This document shows, piece after piece, positions 52,199-63,832 of a DNA stretch of 64,000 bases. The first letter of the stretch is position 1; each line of letters begins with the position of its first letter. The notes under the pieces are model-generated. The model saw only the letters and a list, made by a program, of their open reading frames with translations, was not told the DNA's origin and made no database searches. The stretch comes from Flavobacteriia bacterium (lineage in GTDB: Bacteria; Bacteroidota; Bacteroidia; Flavobacteriales; Weeksellaceae), in NCBI GenBank assembly GCA_015999765.1, contig JAECQR010000006.1:102469-166468 (forward strand). The letters run 5' to 3'. Position numbers and translations under genes: made by a program.

Positions 52199-55036
52199 AT
52201 GCAAAAAATCTATGTTTTCTTACTTTTACTAATTTCTACTTTAAATTCTTCTCAACAGCTGGATGCTGAATTGTACGAAATAAATTACCAAAGTGGCTTA
52301 GATGCCCGGAATTTATTTAAATATAACGATCAAATCCTTTTCGCCGGTGCCAAAAACGATATGTCGCCAGGGTATTGGAATATGAATTACGAACTTTGGT
52401 CTTACAATTTCACCACAAAAAAAACAACGCTTCTGAAAGAGCTGGTGCCGTATGCGAGCTCACCTTTCGGGCACGATCCCCAATTTCTTTTATTTAAAGG
52501 AAAAACCTATTTCCTCGCAGAAATAAACTCCAAATATGAACTTTGGGAAACTAATGGAACTAGGGACGGTACCCGGAAGGTTTTCGGATTTCCCGATAAT
52601 TATGTCATGCAAATGACTTCAAATACGGAAAAAATCATCATTACCGGAAATAAAACAGTTTATATTTCTAATGGTTCAACGGCAGGAACTCAACTGCTTA
52701 TGCCGACGGCAGGTGAACTAGAGAAAAAACCGTTTCCTTACCAGTCTTATTTTGTGTTTGCCGCAAAAAATACTGAGTATAAAAATGAACTTTGGATGAC
52801 CGACGGCGGTACTTCGGGCACCTTTAAAATAAAATCTTTCGATACCAATGACCAGCTGACCGTACATGTAGATCTGGACTGTTATATTTTAAATGGTCAA
52901 CTGTTTTTCTACGGCCAGGACTCAAGTGGAACTAGAAATGGTTTGTGGGCCCTGGATAATGCCACAAAAAAAGCAAAGTTTATTTTTAAGACCAATGGAG
53001 TGAATTCCGGCAAGGTTCTGAACAATAAGCTTATTTTCTTTGGTAACACCTCAACTGACGGTAATAATCTTTTTGCCACCGATGGAACTGCCGAAAACAC
53101 GAAGGCTTTAAACGCTACCATGCATTTTGCAAGCTCGGTTAATGAAGGGACAGGTTTGCAGATTTTGGGAGATTCGGTTTACTTTTTCGCGAATATAAAC
53201 GAACGGAACAGGCTGTGGAAAACAGACGGTACCATGGCGGGAACGGTTTCGACAAATATCATAATCCCGGATTATGCTCGCCCGAATTTTCTGAAATATT
53301 TTCCGGAAAATAAACTTCTGCTCCTTGAAAATGCCTCCCATAACTTATTTTATCTGCTTGATGAAAACCTAAATGTAACCGCCCTCAACGAAACACGACT
53401 GCACGATGCGGTTGAAAAGGACAACAAACTGATCTTTAATCTGTACACCAAAAAATTTGGTCTGGAGTTATCTCAGTTCGATCCGGCTACTGCAGAAATT
53501 TCACTTTTTAAAGACAGCCAGCATGAAATAGGAAGTTTCCCGTCGAACCTGCAGACCACGGCACAAAACTCTCTCATTATCACCGCTAATGATGGCGAGT
53601 TTGGAAACCAGTTTTACAGCATTGCCACTAAAGGTGACATCCCAAAAGTCATTAAGCAAAGTCCGAGCTGGAACAGCGTGCCAACGGGCGATCTTTTTAA
53701 AGTAGGCACATATTATTACGTAAAACCTTCGGAATATACGAGCGCTTTGGCAAAAACAAACGGTGAGGAAACGCAGACGCAGTTTTTATCGCTTCCTCAA
53801 ACTTTTGACAGTTCTGCTTCTTTCGGAAATCTCAATGATGAAGCGCTCATCGTGACGACCTACAGCTCCAATCCGGAAAGAAACATTCGCGTCTGGAAAA
53901 ACAATGTGGAGCTTAATACAGTAGAACTGATCAAAGAAATCCCGACAGGTTCCACGGTGCAAAACGCGAAAAGCATTTCGTACAAAGGCAATGTGTATTT
54001 CACGGTATATACTGCCGATTACCATACCCAAATCTGGAAAACCAACGGCACCGCGGCCGGAACAAAAATCGCTTTCGAGATACCGGATAATGAATACTAC
54101 AGCAATGTTCCCAGACTTTTACAGGTCTTTGACAACCAATTATTAGTGGCTAAAAACACGAAGCTTTGGGCCTTTAACGGAGATACCGAGCAGATAAAGG
54201 AAATTCCTTTTCCGACAAATAACTGGGGATACGGCGACTGGAATATTTCCGACAGTACATTAATCGATGAGGGCAAATTATATATCCTCTCTCAATTAGG
54301 TTATGGCAGTGTTTTCAGATTTAATGATCTGCAGTCGCAGCCCACCAATCTGTTCAGTGCTAACTTTCTTGGGACACACACTTCCTTTAAAAAATGTGGA
54401 AATCAGATCTATGTTGGAAATGGAACGTCTGAGGATAAGCTGCGGGTGCTTTGGAGCATTACTCCCTCGACCGCTTCAACTAAAGAAATCATCAACTATA
54501 ATGCTGGCGCTTCGATTTCGAATTTAACATGTGCGAAAGATTATCTATATTTTCTTCGGGAAAATAACCCGCAGGTTTGGCGGACAAACGGCACCACTGA
54601 AAGCATTATTTCGCTGCCGCTTAATGTTTTGAATGACGAACAGATCGCTTCCGATGATCAACTTTTAAAATTACATTCTTATGATGAGAATATTTATTTT
54701 GTGGCAAAAACCAAAAGTTCCGGCACAGAACTTTATATGGTGAAAACCGAATTGCCAGTTTACCTCAGTACAGGAAATGCAGCGACGGGAGGCGAAAAGA
54801 TCAAATTAATCTTATACCCAAATCCAGCAACATCATTTATTAAGATCAAAGAAAACCAAGCCCCGCAAATCGAGACATACAAAATATTTGACACAACGGG
54901 AAAACAAATCCTGAGTGGAAAATATACCGGTCAGGACCAATCCATCGATATTTCGCGGTTGCTCACCGGAAATTACATTATGGAAATCACAACTAAAAAC
55001 GGAAGCCGGTTTTCTCAAAAATTTATTAAAAAATAA
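52199..55036 (+). CDS. Large T9SS cargo protein with ELWxTDGTxxGT repeats
   Basis: 945 residues. Signal peptide MQKIYVFLLLLISTLNSSQQ. Repeated propeller-like motifs include ELWETNGTRDGT, ELWMTDGGTSGT, LFATDGTAENT, LWKTDGTMAGT, IWKTNGTAAGT and VWRTNGTTES. The final ~80 residues are a T9SS type A sorting domain (LILYPNPATSFIKIKE to SQKFIKK). The repeat is known from large surface proteins of Bacteroidetes; function is unproven. It sits 26 nt after the PorV-like gene. Confidence 0.88.
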   Translation: MQKIYVFLLLLISTLNSSQQLDAELYEINYQSGLDARNLFKYNDQILFAGAKNDMSPGYWNMNYELWSYNFTTKKTTLLKELVPYASSPFGHDPQFLLFKGKTYFLAEINSKYELWETNGTRDGTRKVFGFPDNYVMQMTSNTEKIIITGNKTVYISNGSTAGTQLLMPTAGELEKKPFPYQSYFVFAAKNTEYKNELWMTDGGTSGTFKIKSFDTNDQLTVHVDLDCYILNGQLFFYGQDSSGTRNGLWALDNATKKAKFIFKTNGVNSGKVLNNKLIFFGNTSTDGNNLFATDGTAENTKALNATMHFASSVNEGTGLQILGDSVYFFANINERNRLWKTDGTMAGTVSTNIIIPDYARPNFLKYFPENKLLLLENASHNLFYLLDENLNVTALNETRLHDAVEKDNKLIFNLYTKKFGLELSQFDPATAEISLFKDSQHEIGSFPSNLQTTAQNSLIITANDGEFGNQFYSIATKGDIPKVIKQSPSWNSVPTGDLFKVGTYYYVKPSEYTSALAKTNGEETQTQFLSLPQTFDSSASFGNLNDEALIVTTYSSNPERNIRVWKNNVELNTVELIKEIPTGSTVQNAKSISYKGNVYFTVYTADYHTQIWKTNGTAAGTKIAFEIPDNEYYSNVPRLLQVFDNQLLVAKNTKLWAFNGDTEQIKEIPFPTNNWGYGDWNISDSTLIDEGKLYILSQLGYGSVFRFNDLQSQPTNLFSANFLGTHTSFKKCGNQIYVGNGTSEDKLRVLWSITPSTASTKEIINYNAGASISNLTCAKDYLYFLRENNPQVWRTNGTTESIISLPLNVLNDEQIASDDQLLKLHSYDENIYFVAKTKSSGTELYMVKTELPVYLSTGNAATGGEKIKLILYPNPATSFIKIKENQAPQIETYKIFDTTGKQILSGKYTGQDQSIDISRLLTGNYIMEITTKNGSRFSQKFIKK

Positions 55037-58440: not shown

Positions 58441-58502
58441 AAGTTTTAGCGTTTACAATGACCGTCTTAAAAAAAGACGTAAATTTGCTGAAAACCAATG
58501 TT

Positions 58503-60212
58503 ATGAAAACATTTTTACCTTTATTTATATTTTGCACAGTTCTCGCCAATGCTCAAACGGAAGTTAAATGGAAAAAAGTTTTTGGCGGGAGCCAAGGTGA
58601 CTCGTTTTCGAAACAGGTTAAAACAACAGACTCTAATTTTGTTTTTTCCGGCTCAACAAGCAGTTCAGATGGGGATTTGCCGGTTAACTATGGGTCAAAC
58701 GATGTGGTCGTTTCAAAAATAACAAAAGACGGAAACATTCTTTGGACTAAAGTTATAGGTGGTAACGACTATGATGCTCCGCAGGATATGATAAAAACAA
58801 GTGATGGAGGAGTCATTTTAACTGTATTAAGCAGTTCGAATACGGACTTTTTTCCACAACATTATGGAAATGAGAGCAGTTATGATGTTTATGTCATTAA
58901 ACTAGATAAAGATGGTAATATTTTGTGGAGTAAATTTATTGGAGGCTCGGGGGAAGAATCTAAAGCATCTGTAGTTTCAACAAATTCAGGTTATGTCGTA
59001 GCTATAAACTCCATTTCAAATGATTTCGATTTTGAAAGTTTGTATGGTGGTAAAAATATACTCGTGATAAAATTTGACGAGGCCGGAAATATTATTTGGC
59101 GCAAAAATCTGGCTGGGTCAAATGACGAAGTGTTTGAAGATTTACGATCTTTTGATCAGGAAAATGTTTTATTAGCAATTAATTCTGATTCTACTGACGG
59201 CAGTTTCTCGAATAGTACTACGACGATAAAAAAAGGCTTTGTGGTAAAAATTAATTCAGAAGGGGATGTGGTATTTTCTACACCAATAATTACAGATAAT
59301 CCAAACTTAGTTAATTCTGTTTCTACGATTAATTCTTTCAACAATCAATATTTTGCCGTCGGCACTGAACGAAAAGAATCCTTTCAAGCAGTAGGTATTA
59401 TAAAACATTTTGATGCGATGCTCGTGAATTTTTCAGAAAGCGGATCACTTCTTTGGAAGAAAAATTATTCATGGAAAGTAAGCACATCAAATAATTCAGA
59501 AACCTACTACGATGGAGCGCTCTTTATAGAACAAACCATTGACAACCATATTCTGCTCAGCGGAGTAACCTATATCCACGAAGATTCTATGTATGGAATA
59601 AACCTTATTTCATCCTGGTTAAAAAAGATTGATATGCAAGGGAACTTAGTAAATACAATTGGACGCATATCGAGGACCTACAAGTTAGAGAAACTGCCAA
59701 ACGGTCTGTTTATAGATCATGCATATAAATACGAATACGGACCTTATGGTGTTACTTCCATTTACGACCTCCAAATTGTGACTCCTGACGGAATGAATTT
59801 TTTGCCTAGCTCATCATTTAAAAGTGTTTTGACTACAGACAAACATTTGGGAACCCGTACTAGTACCAGTACGGTAGATGGCAATAATCTAATTCTTTTT
59901 AGCAATCGGAATAATCTTATAGAATCTTCTATTTGGATCACAAGGATCCAGTCATCAGAATTTACAACTACTGAACTTGCATCAGAAGAAGTAGAAGCTA
60001 CAAAAGTGGATATTTATCCGAATCCGACCTCCAACTTCATCAAGTTATCAAGGAAAGCAAACATTATTTCTCTTTACGATACTTCCGGTAAAATGCTGAT
60101 CACCGCAAAAGATACTGACGTGATCGATTTAACTAAATTTTTAAAAGGCGTTTATTTTCTTAAAGTACAGATTGACGATAAAACCAAATCTTTTAAAGTG
60201 ATCAAAAATTAA
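58503..60212 (+). CDS. T9SS cargo protein with propeller-like repeats
   Basis: 569 residues from MKTFLPLFIFCTVLANA; the ORF-track start at 58458 adds 15 residues before the signal peptide. The body repeats a pattern such as VVVSKITKDGNILWTKVIGG, VYVIKLDKDGNILWSKFIGG, VIKFDEAGNIIWRKNLAG, consistent with a beta-propeller. A T9SS sorting domain ends it (VDIYPNPTSNFIKLSRK to SFKVIKN). The region looks more A+T-rich than its neighbours and is flanked by direct repeats, so it may be a recently acquired cassette. Confidence 0.82.
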   Translation: MKTFLPLFIFCTVLANAQTEVKWKKVFGGSQGDSFSKQVKTTDSNFVFSGSTSSSDGDLPVNYGSNDVVVSKITKDGNILWTKVIGGNDYDAPQDMIKTSDGGVILTVLSSSNTDFFPQHYGNESSYDVYVIKLDKDGNILWSKFIGGSGEESKASVVSTNSGYVVAINSISNDFDFESLYGGKNILVIKFDEAGNIIWRKNLAGSNDEVFEDLRSFDQENVLLAINSDSTDGSFSNSTTTIKKGFVVKINSEGDVVFSTPIITDNPNLVNSVSTINSFNNQYFAVGTERKESFQAVGIIKHFDAMLVNFSESGSLLWKKNYSWKVSTSNNSETYYDGALFIEQTIDNHILLSGVTYIHEDSMYGINLISSWLKKIDMQGNLVNTIGRISRTYKLEKLPNGLFIDHAYKYEYGPYGVTSIYDLQIVTPDGMNFLPSSSFKSVLTTDKHLGTRTSTSTVDGNNLILFSNRNNLIESSIWITRIQSSEFTTTELASEEVEATKVDIYPNPTSNFIKLSRKANIISLYDTSGKMLITAKDTDVIDLTKFLKGVYFLKVQIDDKTKSFKVIKN

Positions 60213-60339: not shown

Positions 60340-62154
60340 TTATTTCGTCTTATTTTCGGGAATTACAAGACCTGTGATTTTACTTTTGTAATCTGCCAAT
60401 TGGGTCTGAATGGTTTTCACATTATCATTGAAAAACGTAGTTTCCGAAAATAATCTCTCATAATATTCTACGCCTTCGGTTAGATTGCTTTTAAAAGTTT
60501 TCCATTTCTTAACCTGTGCATTGGTAAAATTTTCTGAGAAATCGTCAATTTCATTTTTTAGGTATTCGACGTACATTTTCAGTTCGTTCACGAAGAGATT
60601 CGGTCGACCGTTCTCAAGCATTACATTTTTCTCACCGTAAATATGCTGTACCATATCTGCCAGCGAAACTTCTTTGTTAAAATAAGCGAGATTTGGGCCC
60701 GGACAAACCACTACGCCCTGCTTTTCCCCTTTGACCGTAAGTTCATTTTCAAGATAAGATGAGTTCACCAAACCTACGCAAAGACATGATTTTTCAGTAA
60801 TTTTAGTCTTTGTTCTGTCGTATTCGCGATCGCTGATCTCATTTTTCTGGAGCTCCAGGTCATTCAGTTTAATGGTTTGATATTTTCGGGAGGCTGTACA
60901 GATTCCCTGAGGCGAAAATTCTTTGCTCAGTGCCAAAAACTTTTTAGGGCATGAACTTCCGGCTTTGTTCTGAAGCACTTTCTGTTGTTTCAGAAATTCA
61001 TTGGTTGTTCCTTTAACGGTATTGAAAGGTATTCCCAGCGGTGAAATATTGCTGAGATAAAAATCGTCTTCTTTAGATTTCGATAATAACTGACGCGTTT
61101 CTTTGTCTACAGAAGTTGCTTCCGGTACGAGTAAAAACGGTGAACCCCAACCGACACTGTCAAGCTGATAATTTTCCAGTAAAAATTCATGCTCTTCTGC
61201 TGTTCCTACGCCGCCCTGCACCGTAATCTTCATCTCCAGCGGTTCTGGGGGACAAGGCAATTCTTTCTGCGTTAAAGCTTTTGCCATCAAATCGTGTGCG
61301 GAAGCGATGAGCTCGTCTTTCTTTTGCTTAAATTCTTCCATGATCGGTCCTAAAAGCAATCCGTCAGTCGCAAAGGCATGTCCCCCACAGTTCAATCCGG
61401 ATTCAACACGGTATTCCGAAACCCAAAGTCCTTTTTTTGCCAGAAAATTCCCCTGAATCATCGCAGAACGGAAGTCGCTTACTTTAAGAATAATTTTCTT
61501 TTTCAGTTCTCCCTTTTCATTTGGAAAAAAATCGGGAAATGACTCAAAATAACTGTAAAGTCTGGGATTCATACCTGCAGAAAGTACCACAGAAGAAGAA
61601 AGTTTGCTGTTTGCAAACCCGCGCAGCGATACGTGTGCATCATTATAAATCACAGGCAACTGGATGTTTTTATCAAAATTGTCTTTGTCTACTTTGGTCA
61701 TGATGTTCACATCAATACTTCCCGGAGAAAGATGAGTGTCCAAAAATTTTCTGACGTTTTCTGTGAAATTATCTTTCTGCCCGGCAAGATTTTTCAGGCC
61801 GTTTCTTACATTTGATTTGTTGGGAAGTATCGAAATGTACTGGTTAAGCGCATCTTTACTTTTGCTGAGTTCCTGCTTTAAATTTTCGAATTTCAAATTC
61901 ACCACATCATCCACCATATCCAGGTACGCTGTGATTCTTTTTGCGCGGTAATCTTCAATTTTATTCGTGATTTCGGTATAACTGAAATTATTTTTCTGGT
62001 GATAGAGGCGGTTCATTCTCTCAATAATTTCATCGTCAATGATAGAAATTACTGATGAAATACCATACTGCGCTACTTTTATAGGACTGTCGATGGTATA
62101 GGCAAGTCCCATTACCGGGATGTGAAAATTGTGGACGGGTGTCTTTTCCTTCAT
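60340..62154 (-). CDS. Uncharacterised 604-residue protein, FMN/TIM-barrel-like with a cysteine cluster
   Basis: No name fits. The N-terminus (VMGLAYTIDSPIKVAQYGIS) resembles the first strand of nitronate monooxygenase/IMPDH-type barrels. LNCGGHAFATDG lies near residue 256, and QGGVGTAEEHEFL plus SVGWGSPFLLVPEAT (~312-348) look like the phosphate-binding end of an FMN barrel. A Cys set follows: GSSCPKKF, QGICTASRKYQ, KSCLCVGL and VVCPGPN, suitable for an Fe-S cluster. Helical coiled segments at ~75-115 and ~530-600 bracket the core. Soluble, no signal peptide. A TATTTTTG box lies at 62203-62196. It is divergent from hutH. Whether it is an FMN enzyme is inferred. Confidence 0.6.
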   Translation of the reverse strand: MKEKTPVHNFHIPVMGLAYTIDSPIKVAQYGISSVISIIDDEIIERMNRLYHQKNNFSYTEITNKIEDYRAKRITAYLDMVDDVVNLKFENLKQELSKSKDALNQYISILPNKSNVRNGLKNLAGQKDNFTENVRKFLDTHLSPGSIDVNIMTKVDKDNFDKNIQLPVIYNDAHVSLRGFANSKLSSSVVLSAGMNPRLYSYFESFPDFFPNEKGELKKKIILKVSDFRSAMIQGNFLAKKGLWVSEYRVESGLNCGGHAFATDGLLLGPIMEEFKQKKDELIASAHDLMAKALTQKELPCPPEPLEMKITVQGGVGTAEEHEFLLENYQLDSVGWGSPFLLVPEATSVDKETRQLLSKSKEDDFYLSNISPLGIPFNTVKGTTNEFLKQQKVLQNKAGSSCPKKFLALSKEFSPQGICTASRKYQTIKLNDLELQKNEISDREYDRTKTKITEKSCLCVGLVNSSYLENELTVKGEKQGVVVCPGPNLAYFNKEVSLADMVQHIYGEKNVMLENGRPNLFVNELKMYVEYLKNEIDDFSENFTNAQVKKWKTFKSNLTEGVEYYERLFSETTFFNDNVKTIQTQLADYKSKITGLVIPENKTK

Positions 62155-62203: not shown

Positions 62204-62341
62204 GATTATTATTATTGACTATGCAGCGAATACGATATTAAAAATGATTTCATTAAGCATGACTTTTGTCAGTATTGATATAAATAGGGCTCGTTTTTCC
62301 TTAATTGCTAAAAAAGTGTAATTTTAGGCAAATTCTTATCA

Positions 62342-63832
62342 ATGAAAATTTACGGCATAGACCAACTTACGATTACCGATGTAATTGCGATCCTGAATAA
62401 CCCATCAAAAGCAAAACTTAATAAGGAAGCGAAACAGAAGATTCTTAAATCTCAGCAAAATGTACAGCAGATCGTAGAATCCGACCGCACCGTTTACGGA
62501 ATCAACACAGGTTTCGGACCGCTATGCGATGTAAAGATTTCTGAGGAGGAAACAGCACAGCTCCAGCACAACCTGATTATTTCGCATGCTGTGGGTGTAG
62601 GAAAACCCATTGCCAAAGATTTATCGAAAGTAATGATGATTGCAAAGATTCATGCTTTATCTAAAGGATTTTCTGGCGTATCTCTGGAAGTTATTGAAAG
62701 GCTGATTTTAATGCTCGAAAAAGATATTATTCCTGTCGTTCCGGAACAGGGTTCCGTTGGCGCTTCGGGCGACCTCGCCCCTTTGGCCCATTTGGTCCTG
62801 CCGCTTTTAGGCCTGGGAAAAGTATGGGAAAAAGATATACTGGTAGAAACTTCCGAAGTGCTCGAAAAACATGGCTTAGAGCCACTAATCTTAGGTCCGA
62901 AAGAAGGTCTGGGATTAATCAACGGAACGCAGTTTATCCTGGCACACGCAATTTTGGGTCTTCACAAGTTTGAATATCTTTTAAATCTTGCCGACTTAAC
63001 TGCCGCTATGTCATTGGAAGCGTACCGCGGCTCCTCCAGTCCGTTCAAAAAGGAACTACACGAAATCCGCCCTTTTGATGGCAGTAAAAAAGTAGCGGCA
63101 AGAATGCTGAAGTTTCTGGAGAATTCGGAAAATCTTAAGGAACACGAATTCTGTGACAGAGTTCAGGATCCGTATTCCATGCGTTGTGTTCCTCAGGTAC
63201 ATGGAGCAAGCAGAAACGCCTTTGAACATTTAAAGAACCTTGCAGAAACGGAATTGAATTCGGTTACTGACAACCCGATTATTTTAAGCTCGGAAGAGTC
63301 TATATCAGGCGGTAATTTCCACGGACAGCTACTAGCCTTACCGTTAGATTACTGTACTTTGGCCGCTGCTGAACTGGGCAATATTTCGGACCGGAGAAGT
63401 TACCTTTTACTGGAAGGAAAATTTGGCTTGCCAAGACTTTTGACGGAGAGTTCAGGATTAAACTCCGGCTTTATGATTCCGCAATACACGTCTGCAGCAT
63501 TAGTTACGGAAAATAAAACTTTATGTTTCCCAGCCTCAGCTGATTCAATTCCCACGAGTTTAGGGCAGGAAGATCATGTCTCAATGGGAAGCATATCAGG
63601 GCGTAAATTTAACCAGGTTTTAGGAAATTTAGAAAATATATTGGCGGTAGAACTTATGTTCGGAGCTCAGGGATTAGAATTCCGGAGACCCGCAAAATGC
63701 TCTACATATGTTGAAAAGGCGTATGCCCTCATCCGCACAAAAGTAGCGAAATTAGAAGATGACAGGTTAATTGGGGATGATATTCTTGCGATAGCGGAAT
63801 TAGTAAGAAATCTAATGTTTGATGTTGAATAG
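62342..63832 (+). CDS. hutH: Histidine ammonia-lyase
   Basis: 496 residues, the usual HutH size. The MIO cofactor triad A141-S142-G143 lies in GSVGASGDLAPLAHL, and GLINGTQFILAH, CVPQVHGASRNAF, ISGGNFHGQ and TSLGQEDHVSMGS follow. It deaminates L-histidine to urocanate, the first step of histidine breakdown. The remaining hut genes (hutU, hutI, hutF/G) are not seen here. A tyrosine ammonia-lyase or aminomutase assignment is less likely. Confidence 0.93.
   Translation: MKIYGIDQLTITDVIAILNNPSKAKLNKEAKQKILKSQQNVQQIVESDRTVYGINTGFGPLCDVKISEEETAQLQHNLIISHAVGVGKPIAKDLSKVMMIAKIHALSKGFSGVSLEVIERLILMLEKDIIPVVPEQGSVGASGDLAPLAHLVLPLLGLGKVWEKDILVETSEVLEKHGLEPLILGPKEGLGLINGTQFILAHAILGLHKFEYLLNLADLTAAMSLEAYRGSSSPFKKELHEIRPFDGSKKVAARMLKFLENSENLKEHEFCDRVQDPYSMRCVPQVHGASRNAFEHLKNLAETELNSVTDNPIILSSEESISGGNFHGQLLALPLDYCTLAAAELGNISDRRSYLLLEGKFGLPRLLTESSGLNSGFMIPQYTSAALVTENKTLCFPASADSIPTSLGQEDHVSMGSISGRKFNQVLGNLENILAVELMFGAQGLEFRRPAKCSTYVEKAYALIRTKVAKLEDDRLIGDDILAIAELVRNLMFDVE

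Follow-up and report, generated by a model that had tools for sequence, protein, structure and literature searches.

What does the 604-residue protein encoded beside hutH in the window (the whole 64-kb stretch of DNA that was analysed) do, and under which conditions would it be needed? An earlier note had placed its reading frame at 60340-62154; these coordinates proved exact, but the strand had to be corrected to minus. The frame found there starts with ATG and comprises 604 codons plus a stop, and the plus strand over the same interval contains 20 stops. The note had not recognised the family, and our scans with Pfam, NCBIfam, PHROG and PADLOC likewise returned no family model, yielding only coiled-coil noise and sub-threshold matches.

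A family without a model and its predicted fold

We found homologues in 143 of the 396 sampled genomes of the phylum Bacteroidota, nearly always full length and in one copy, with identities ranging from 40 to 96% (about half of the species of the window's own genus carry the gene). No family match was obtained in plasmid or phage collections. When 44 diverse members were compared with Pfam and NCBIfam, no family scored above its cut-off, and PF03060, the Pfam model for nitronate monooxygenases (NMO), matched none of the 44. The protein represents a real family without a previous model, placed among the FabX-like members of the NMO superfamily. One genome (G152) contains, in addition to an intact copy at C1:15222, a broken second copy at C1:4371170-4372913, which is fragmented and interrupted by a stop and by frame breaks. 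The parts of the gene are as follows.

60340..62154, minus strand: predicted FabX-like flavin/Fe-S barrel protein (reading frame, homologues, AlphaFold model)
61105..62127, minus strand: predicted (beta/alpha)8 barrel, residues 10-350 (DSSP of the model; Foldseek matches to PfaD, FabX, FabK and NMO), with strands at residues 10-12, 33-37, 147-152, 188-192, 220-225, 245-251, 309-313 and 333-335 (DSSP of the model)
61732..61950, minus strand: predicted helical insert between strands 2 and 3, residues 69-141 (alignment, model, comparison with FabX)
61378..61404, minus strand: active-site motif E251-SGLN-C256-GG-H259, i.e. ESGLNCGGH (invariance, profile alignments)
61192..61215, minus strand: GGVGTAEE loop of barrel strand 7 (invariance, profile alignments)
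61120..61152, minus strand: GWGSPFLLVPE of barrel strand 8 (invariance, profile alignments)
60691..60960, minus strand: Cys segment, residues 399-488, with C402, C419, C457, C459 and C484, the last in CPGPN (conservation, alignments with FabX and CLC-type proteins)
60373..60597, minus strand: predicted C-terminal helical part, residues 520-594 (model)

The AlphaFold model, computed from the family alignment, had a mean pLDDT of 94.2 and a pTM of 0.93, and DSSP assigned to it the eight strands of a barrel, with helices inserted behind strand 2. In the model, the barrel is followed by a Cys-rich segment, and the C-terminal part is helical. Judging from this model, the core almost certainly folds as a (beta/alpha)8 barrel. 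In a Foldseek search of the PDB, the top ranks were taken by PfaD, Helicobacter pylori FabX, polyketide enoyl reductases, FabK and 2-nitropropane dioxygenases; the best matches were PfaD (E 2.5e-11) and FabX (E 1.9e-10, TM 0.61 on FabX), followed by FabK, TM0800 and PA1024, while IMPDH-type barrels came far down the ranking. The predicted fold is thus that of the NMO superfamily (PF03060 clan), complete with GGH and GG-loop motifs and with Foldseek E-values down to about 1e-10. This agreed with the earlier note, which had proposed a TIM barrel flanked by helices: the model places the barrel in the NMO/FabK/FabX/PfaD group and predicts helices at 69-141 and 520-594.

Active-site motifs, cysteines and nearest relatives

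Conservation was determined in an alignment of 100 homologues of below 80% identity. E251, S252, G253, N255, GGH 257-259, Q-GG-x-G 313-317 and GW 335-336 are essentially invariant, and the invariant charged or polar positions include R70, R73, K154, D156, K224, D227, R229, N255 and E345, the first two belonging to the helical insert, which is about 73 residues long and missing from FabX. The earlier note had pointed to a C..C..CxC..C pattern of at least five cysteines, which we located as C402, C419, C457-L-C459 and C484. All five passed the conservation check that it had proposed: each is present in 98-100% of the 100 homologues, and C256 and about 60 further positions are equally conserved. 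Because of this near-complete conservation, the five-Cys pattern is not due to chance.

FabX (H. pylori HP0773; PDB 7e1q and 9lt5) is a decanoyl-ACP dehydrogenase/isomerase. It uses FMN and a [4Fe-4S] cluster, bound by C300/C304/C308/C320, in the dehydrogenation and isomerisation of acyl-ACP, and is the sole NMO-family enzyme reported to carry such a cluster (PMC8626469). It shares with the studied family a flavin barrel of the NMO type with a Cys segment behind it, the E...GGH motif, VNIM in strand 3 and an SP-G-P motif ahead of the Cys segment. ESGLNCGGH is the counterpart of FabX E175...H182, E251...GGH259 aligning with the FabX motif and H259 with the catalytic His of FabX-type proteins, but the invariant C256 stands where FabX has Ala. 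Likewise, GGVGTAEE corresponds to FabX AAGGIYTG, on the FMN phosphate side, and GWGSPFLLVPE to the GTRF loop, whose Arg is replaced by Pro. In the Cys segment, the profile alignment pairs C402 and C419 with the cluster ligands C300 and C320. Only the first and last ligands align, the FabX spacing (C-x3-C-x3-C-x11-C) being absent: C304 and C308 have no equivalents, and the family has the CLC (C457, C459) and CPGPN (C484) cysteines instead. The two proteins also differ in length (604 residues vs 363 in FabX), the helical insert and C-terminal helices being specific to the family; their sequence similarity is remote, and no sampled genome has both.

No full-length match at the level of HP0773 was found: phmmer and hmmsearch with the family gave no FabX match, and a profile search of the PDB returned no relevant chain. 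Because sequence searches alone were blind, we built alignments of related flavin barrels from Bacteroidota genomes. These contained true Bacteroidota FabX proteins (L302-L306), one of which (L303) matched FabX with an E-value of 1.9e-77 and with all four cluster Cys aligned. They also contained a group of FabX-like proteins marked by a CLC motif, from Bacteroidota families f32 and f30 (L240, for example), in which C319/C332/C358/C360 align with C402/C419/C457/C459 and the barrel motifs align as well. Unlike the studied family, the CLC-type proteins have about 418 residues, GGMG and ATRF loops as in FabX, and an additional CWTC. With hhalign, the family matched the joint profile of FabX and the CLC-type group at 95.8% (E 8.3e-9), the CLC-type group alone with E 2.9e-4 and FabX alone with E 1.6e-3; the controls gave 3.1e-3 for FabK, 0.15 for NMO and 0.28 for IMPDH. 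From these comparisons, the family appears to sit nearest the FabX-type proteins, on the Fe-S-bearing side of the NMO superfamily. The earlier note had likened two of its motifs, GGVGTAEEHEFL (residues 314-325) and GWGSPFLLVPEAT (residues 335-347), to both NMO and IMPDH barrels; Foldseek supports the first likeness at the level of the superfamily, and we rejected kinship with IMPDH since the hhalign value is not significant.

The CLC-type proteins (L238-L245 and others, in f32 and f30) have an invariant NC...C...CLC...CWTC. About 83 sampled genomes carry them, and the studied family is absent from all of these; they are themselves a candidate uncharacterised family of Fe-S flavoenzymes.

PfaD (6lkc, 4z9r), the trans-acting enoyl reductase of PUFA synthases, resembles the family in its best Foldseek E-value, its similar overall length and its FMN barrel. 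Membership was rejected because the family has no match to TIGR02814 (NCBIfam) and no PKS or PUFA genes among its neighbours; moreover, none of the 61 genomes of the phylum that were searched contained a PfaD above the cut-off. A census of PF03060 cannot separate these subfamilies, as nearly every genome matches it.

By comparison with its relatives, the barrel very probably binds FMN, and there is an equally strong case for the C402/C419/C457/C459/C484 segment as a predicted [4Fe-4S] site. The suggestion of the earlier note that a barrel joined to an Fe-S centre forms a redox enzyme is supported by FabX, the closest relative to have been characterised, whose flavin barrel carries a [4Fe-4S] cluster (PMC8626469); in the family, the occupancy of both sites is predicted. 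We did not class the family as FabX because its Cys set is changed, C256 replaces Ala, and a helical insert and C-terminal helices have been added; it is kept separate, yet probably works like FabX.

Promoter and gene neighbourhood

The gene shares its upstream region with hutH.

62260..62271, no strand assigned: FNR/CRP-type dyad TGACAAAAGTCA in the intergenic region shared with hutH (dyad search, conservation in the genus)
62342..63832, plus strand: hutH, divergent neighbour, outside the system (adjacent in same-genus genomes only)

A dyad search upstream of family genes gave TGAY-N4-RTCA, which is the core of the FNR box (consensus TTGAT-N4-ATCAA). In the window it takes the form TGACAAAAGTCA, 106-117 bp upstream of the ATG, and this is the sole copy in the 64 kb (0.03 expected). 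A looser form of the pattern is not rare there (8 vs 4.2 expected), so that the weight of the dyad rests on its conservation. Of 14 distinct same-genus sequences with diverging flanks, 12 keep it between -117 and -122. A dyad was present in 22 of 100 diverse family upstream regions, compared with 30 of 513 other neighbouring genes (p 2.5e-6, with a motif originally derived from the same family upstream regions), and before 8 of 30 respiratory marker genes such as ccoN, fixI, fnr, nirK and RIC (p 5e-4). Freshly fetched loci had it in 4 of 21 cases outside taxonomic family f38 and in 0 of 19 inside f38, where the neighbouring Rrf2 and RIC genes suggest a different switch. In the window's own genome, a site of the same class (TTATGACTGTAATCATAT) precedes the nos operon, as it does in four other genomes of the genus. 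In these five genomes (L351:1400, L352-L355), perfect FNR-type dyads stand ahead of the cytochrome c-nosZ operon, in the divergent region that it shares with another small gene.

Outside the genus, the recurrent neighbours, which we identified by inspecting their sequences and by BLAST comparison of the loci, are nos genes, nirK, Rrf2-type regulators, RIC, the cbb3 oxidase and FixI, FNR-type regulators, tryptophanase and haem A synthase. RIC is an iron-sulfur repair protein. No fatty-acid genes were found among the recurrent neighbours. The family and nosZ are both present in 69 genomes, where 47 would be expected (Fisher p 1.4e-6, not corrected for shared ancestry); in 19 of these 69, belonging to taxonomic families f3, f17, f36 and f38 and mostly to f38, the two genes are no more than 15 kb apart, against about 0.6 expected at random. 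In many other genomes, CcoN/FixI, NirK, RIC, Rrf2 and FNR genes are close to the family gene. Given the dyad in its promoter and this context, we predict with high confidence that the gene belongs to a low-oxygen regulon of Bacteroidota.

Three arrangements were also observed. In Chryseobacterium/Epilithonimonas, and also in a distant family, 10-25 bp separate the family gene from a gene for an Rrf2-type regulator (L049, L064, L067, L069, L075, L171), which hints at Fe-S- or NO-responsive control. In family f17 (L151, L147, L149), the gene stands beside FixI and CcoN (cbb3 oxidase) genes that carry FNR-type dyads of their own. In the window, two large predicted secreted proteins (52199-55036 and 58458-60212) flank uvrC, and their C-terminal segments resemble type IX secretion sorting domains.

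Possible roles of the protein

A FabX-class flavin/Fe-S enzyme that belongs to a low-oxygen regulon, its substrate being left open, is the reading that we consider likely. The protein would be a soluble flavoenzyme of the NMO superfamily, with FMN in the barrel beside H259 and with the [4Fe-4S] cluster of the Cys segment acting as an electron store or outlet; the site of a partner or substrate presumably owes its shape to the two helical additions, and an FNR/CRP-type regulator would switch the gene on at low oxygen. The most likely reaction would follow that of FabX: hydrogen would be abstracted from an acyl thioester at the flavin, the new double bond would be isomerised, and the cluster would pass the electrons on to some acceptor that is not O2. 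The cell would thereby gain oxygen-independent synthesis of unsaturated fatty acids, or of related acyl groups, during anoxic or N2O/nitrite-respiring growth, a need that would arise once O2-dependent desaturases stop. A parallel is UfaA (NGO1024) of Neisseria gonorrhoeae, which resembles the family, by its description in PMC11300592, in being an NMO/FabX-type protein and in its anaerobic role, being needed for anaerobic unsaturated fatty-acid synthesis and growth; it is not known to have the insert or the Cys set of the family. By analogy with these enzymes, we regard acyl-thioester chemistry as about evenly balanced, and unsaturated fatty-acid synthesis specifically as a tentative proposal.

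Most sampled family genomes encode a desaturase of the PF00487 type, a group that includes O2-dependent acyl desaturases. The unsaturated fatty-acid reading is favoured by this finding, by the FabX/UfaA precedent, by the lack of FabA above the cut-off in the family genomes tested and by the lack of a FabX-type protein in genomes carrying the family. It is weakened by the lack of fatty-acid genes nearby, by the changed Cys set and by the many relatives that do without the gene: half of the same-genus genomes lack it, though most of them have nosZ and none tested has FabA. A literature search on a Bacteroidota FabX/desaturase link returned nothing on point. The fullest version of the proposal, in which a new FMN and [4Fe-4S] family with its own cluster ligands and active-site Cys would give aerobic-looking Bacteroidota an oxygen-independent unsaturated acyl route, or a comparable substitute for an O2-dependent step, during N2O/nitrite respiration, seems to us rather doubtful.

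Alternatively, a FabX-class enzyme of the low-oxygen regulon could act on something other than acyl-ACP, such as a polar or small thioester or a nitrogen compound, with C256 as an active-site thiol. The invariance of C256 within the GGH motif, the many invariant charged positions and the absence of FAS genes nearby all argue for this; because of the Cys replacements, the change of the GTRF Arg to Pro and the invariant charged residues of the insert, the chemistry may indeed differ from that of FabX. However, the nearest structural relatives of known function (FabX, PfaD and FabK) all use acyl thioesters (PMC8626469). We consider such a substrate quite possible, though somewhat short of an even prospect.

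The protein could also assist in N2O reduction or NO defence as an accessory factor, serving NosZ electron supply or maturation, or repair under NO stress, as the RIC and Rrf2 neighbours and the proximity of nosZ might suggest. However, 74 of the 143 family-bearing genomes have no nosZ, 61 nosZ genomes have no family member, and the predicted fold points to a barrel enzyme that converts a substrate; we therefore hold this role to be unlikely. As half of the family's genomes lack nosZ, we discarded a strict role in N2O reduction, and the link is with a low-oxygen lifestyle rather than with NosZ itself.

A classical nitronate monooxygenase or nitroalkane-detoxifying enzyme is very improbable: the superfamily fold matches NMO, PA1024 and TM0800, but the hhalign value for NMO is not significant, so that this kinship was rejected, NMOs have no conserved Cys segment, and they require O2, whereas the family gene appears to belong to a low-oxygen regulon. 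Membership of the histidine utilisation (hut) pathway, to which the divergent hutH in the window had seemed to point, has a negligible probability and was rejected, since the co-occurrence check proposed by the earlier note found hutH close to the family gene in loci of this genus alone, all other lineages examined lacking the arrangement; the hutH neighbourhood is a coincidence.

The structural reading of the earlier note is thus correct, and its hut link is not. With the kinship to FabX-type proteins and the probable low-oxygen control taken together, the job of the protein is probably redox, at scarce oxygen, and its product perhaps unsaturated fatty acids. If Fe-S binding holds true, the family would add to the NMO superfamily, beside FabX, a second and differently wired Fe-S branch, one that is spread over about a third of the sampled genomes of the phylum without a Pfam or NCBIfam model. 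The question that it addresses is that of membrane fluidity in denitrifying Bacteroidota reliant on O2-dependent desaturases, for which a gene that carries an FNR-type site and lies beside nos genes is a directly testable candidate.
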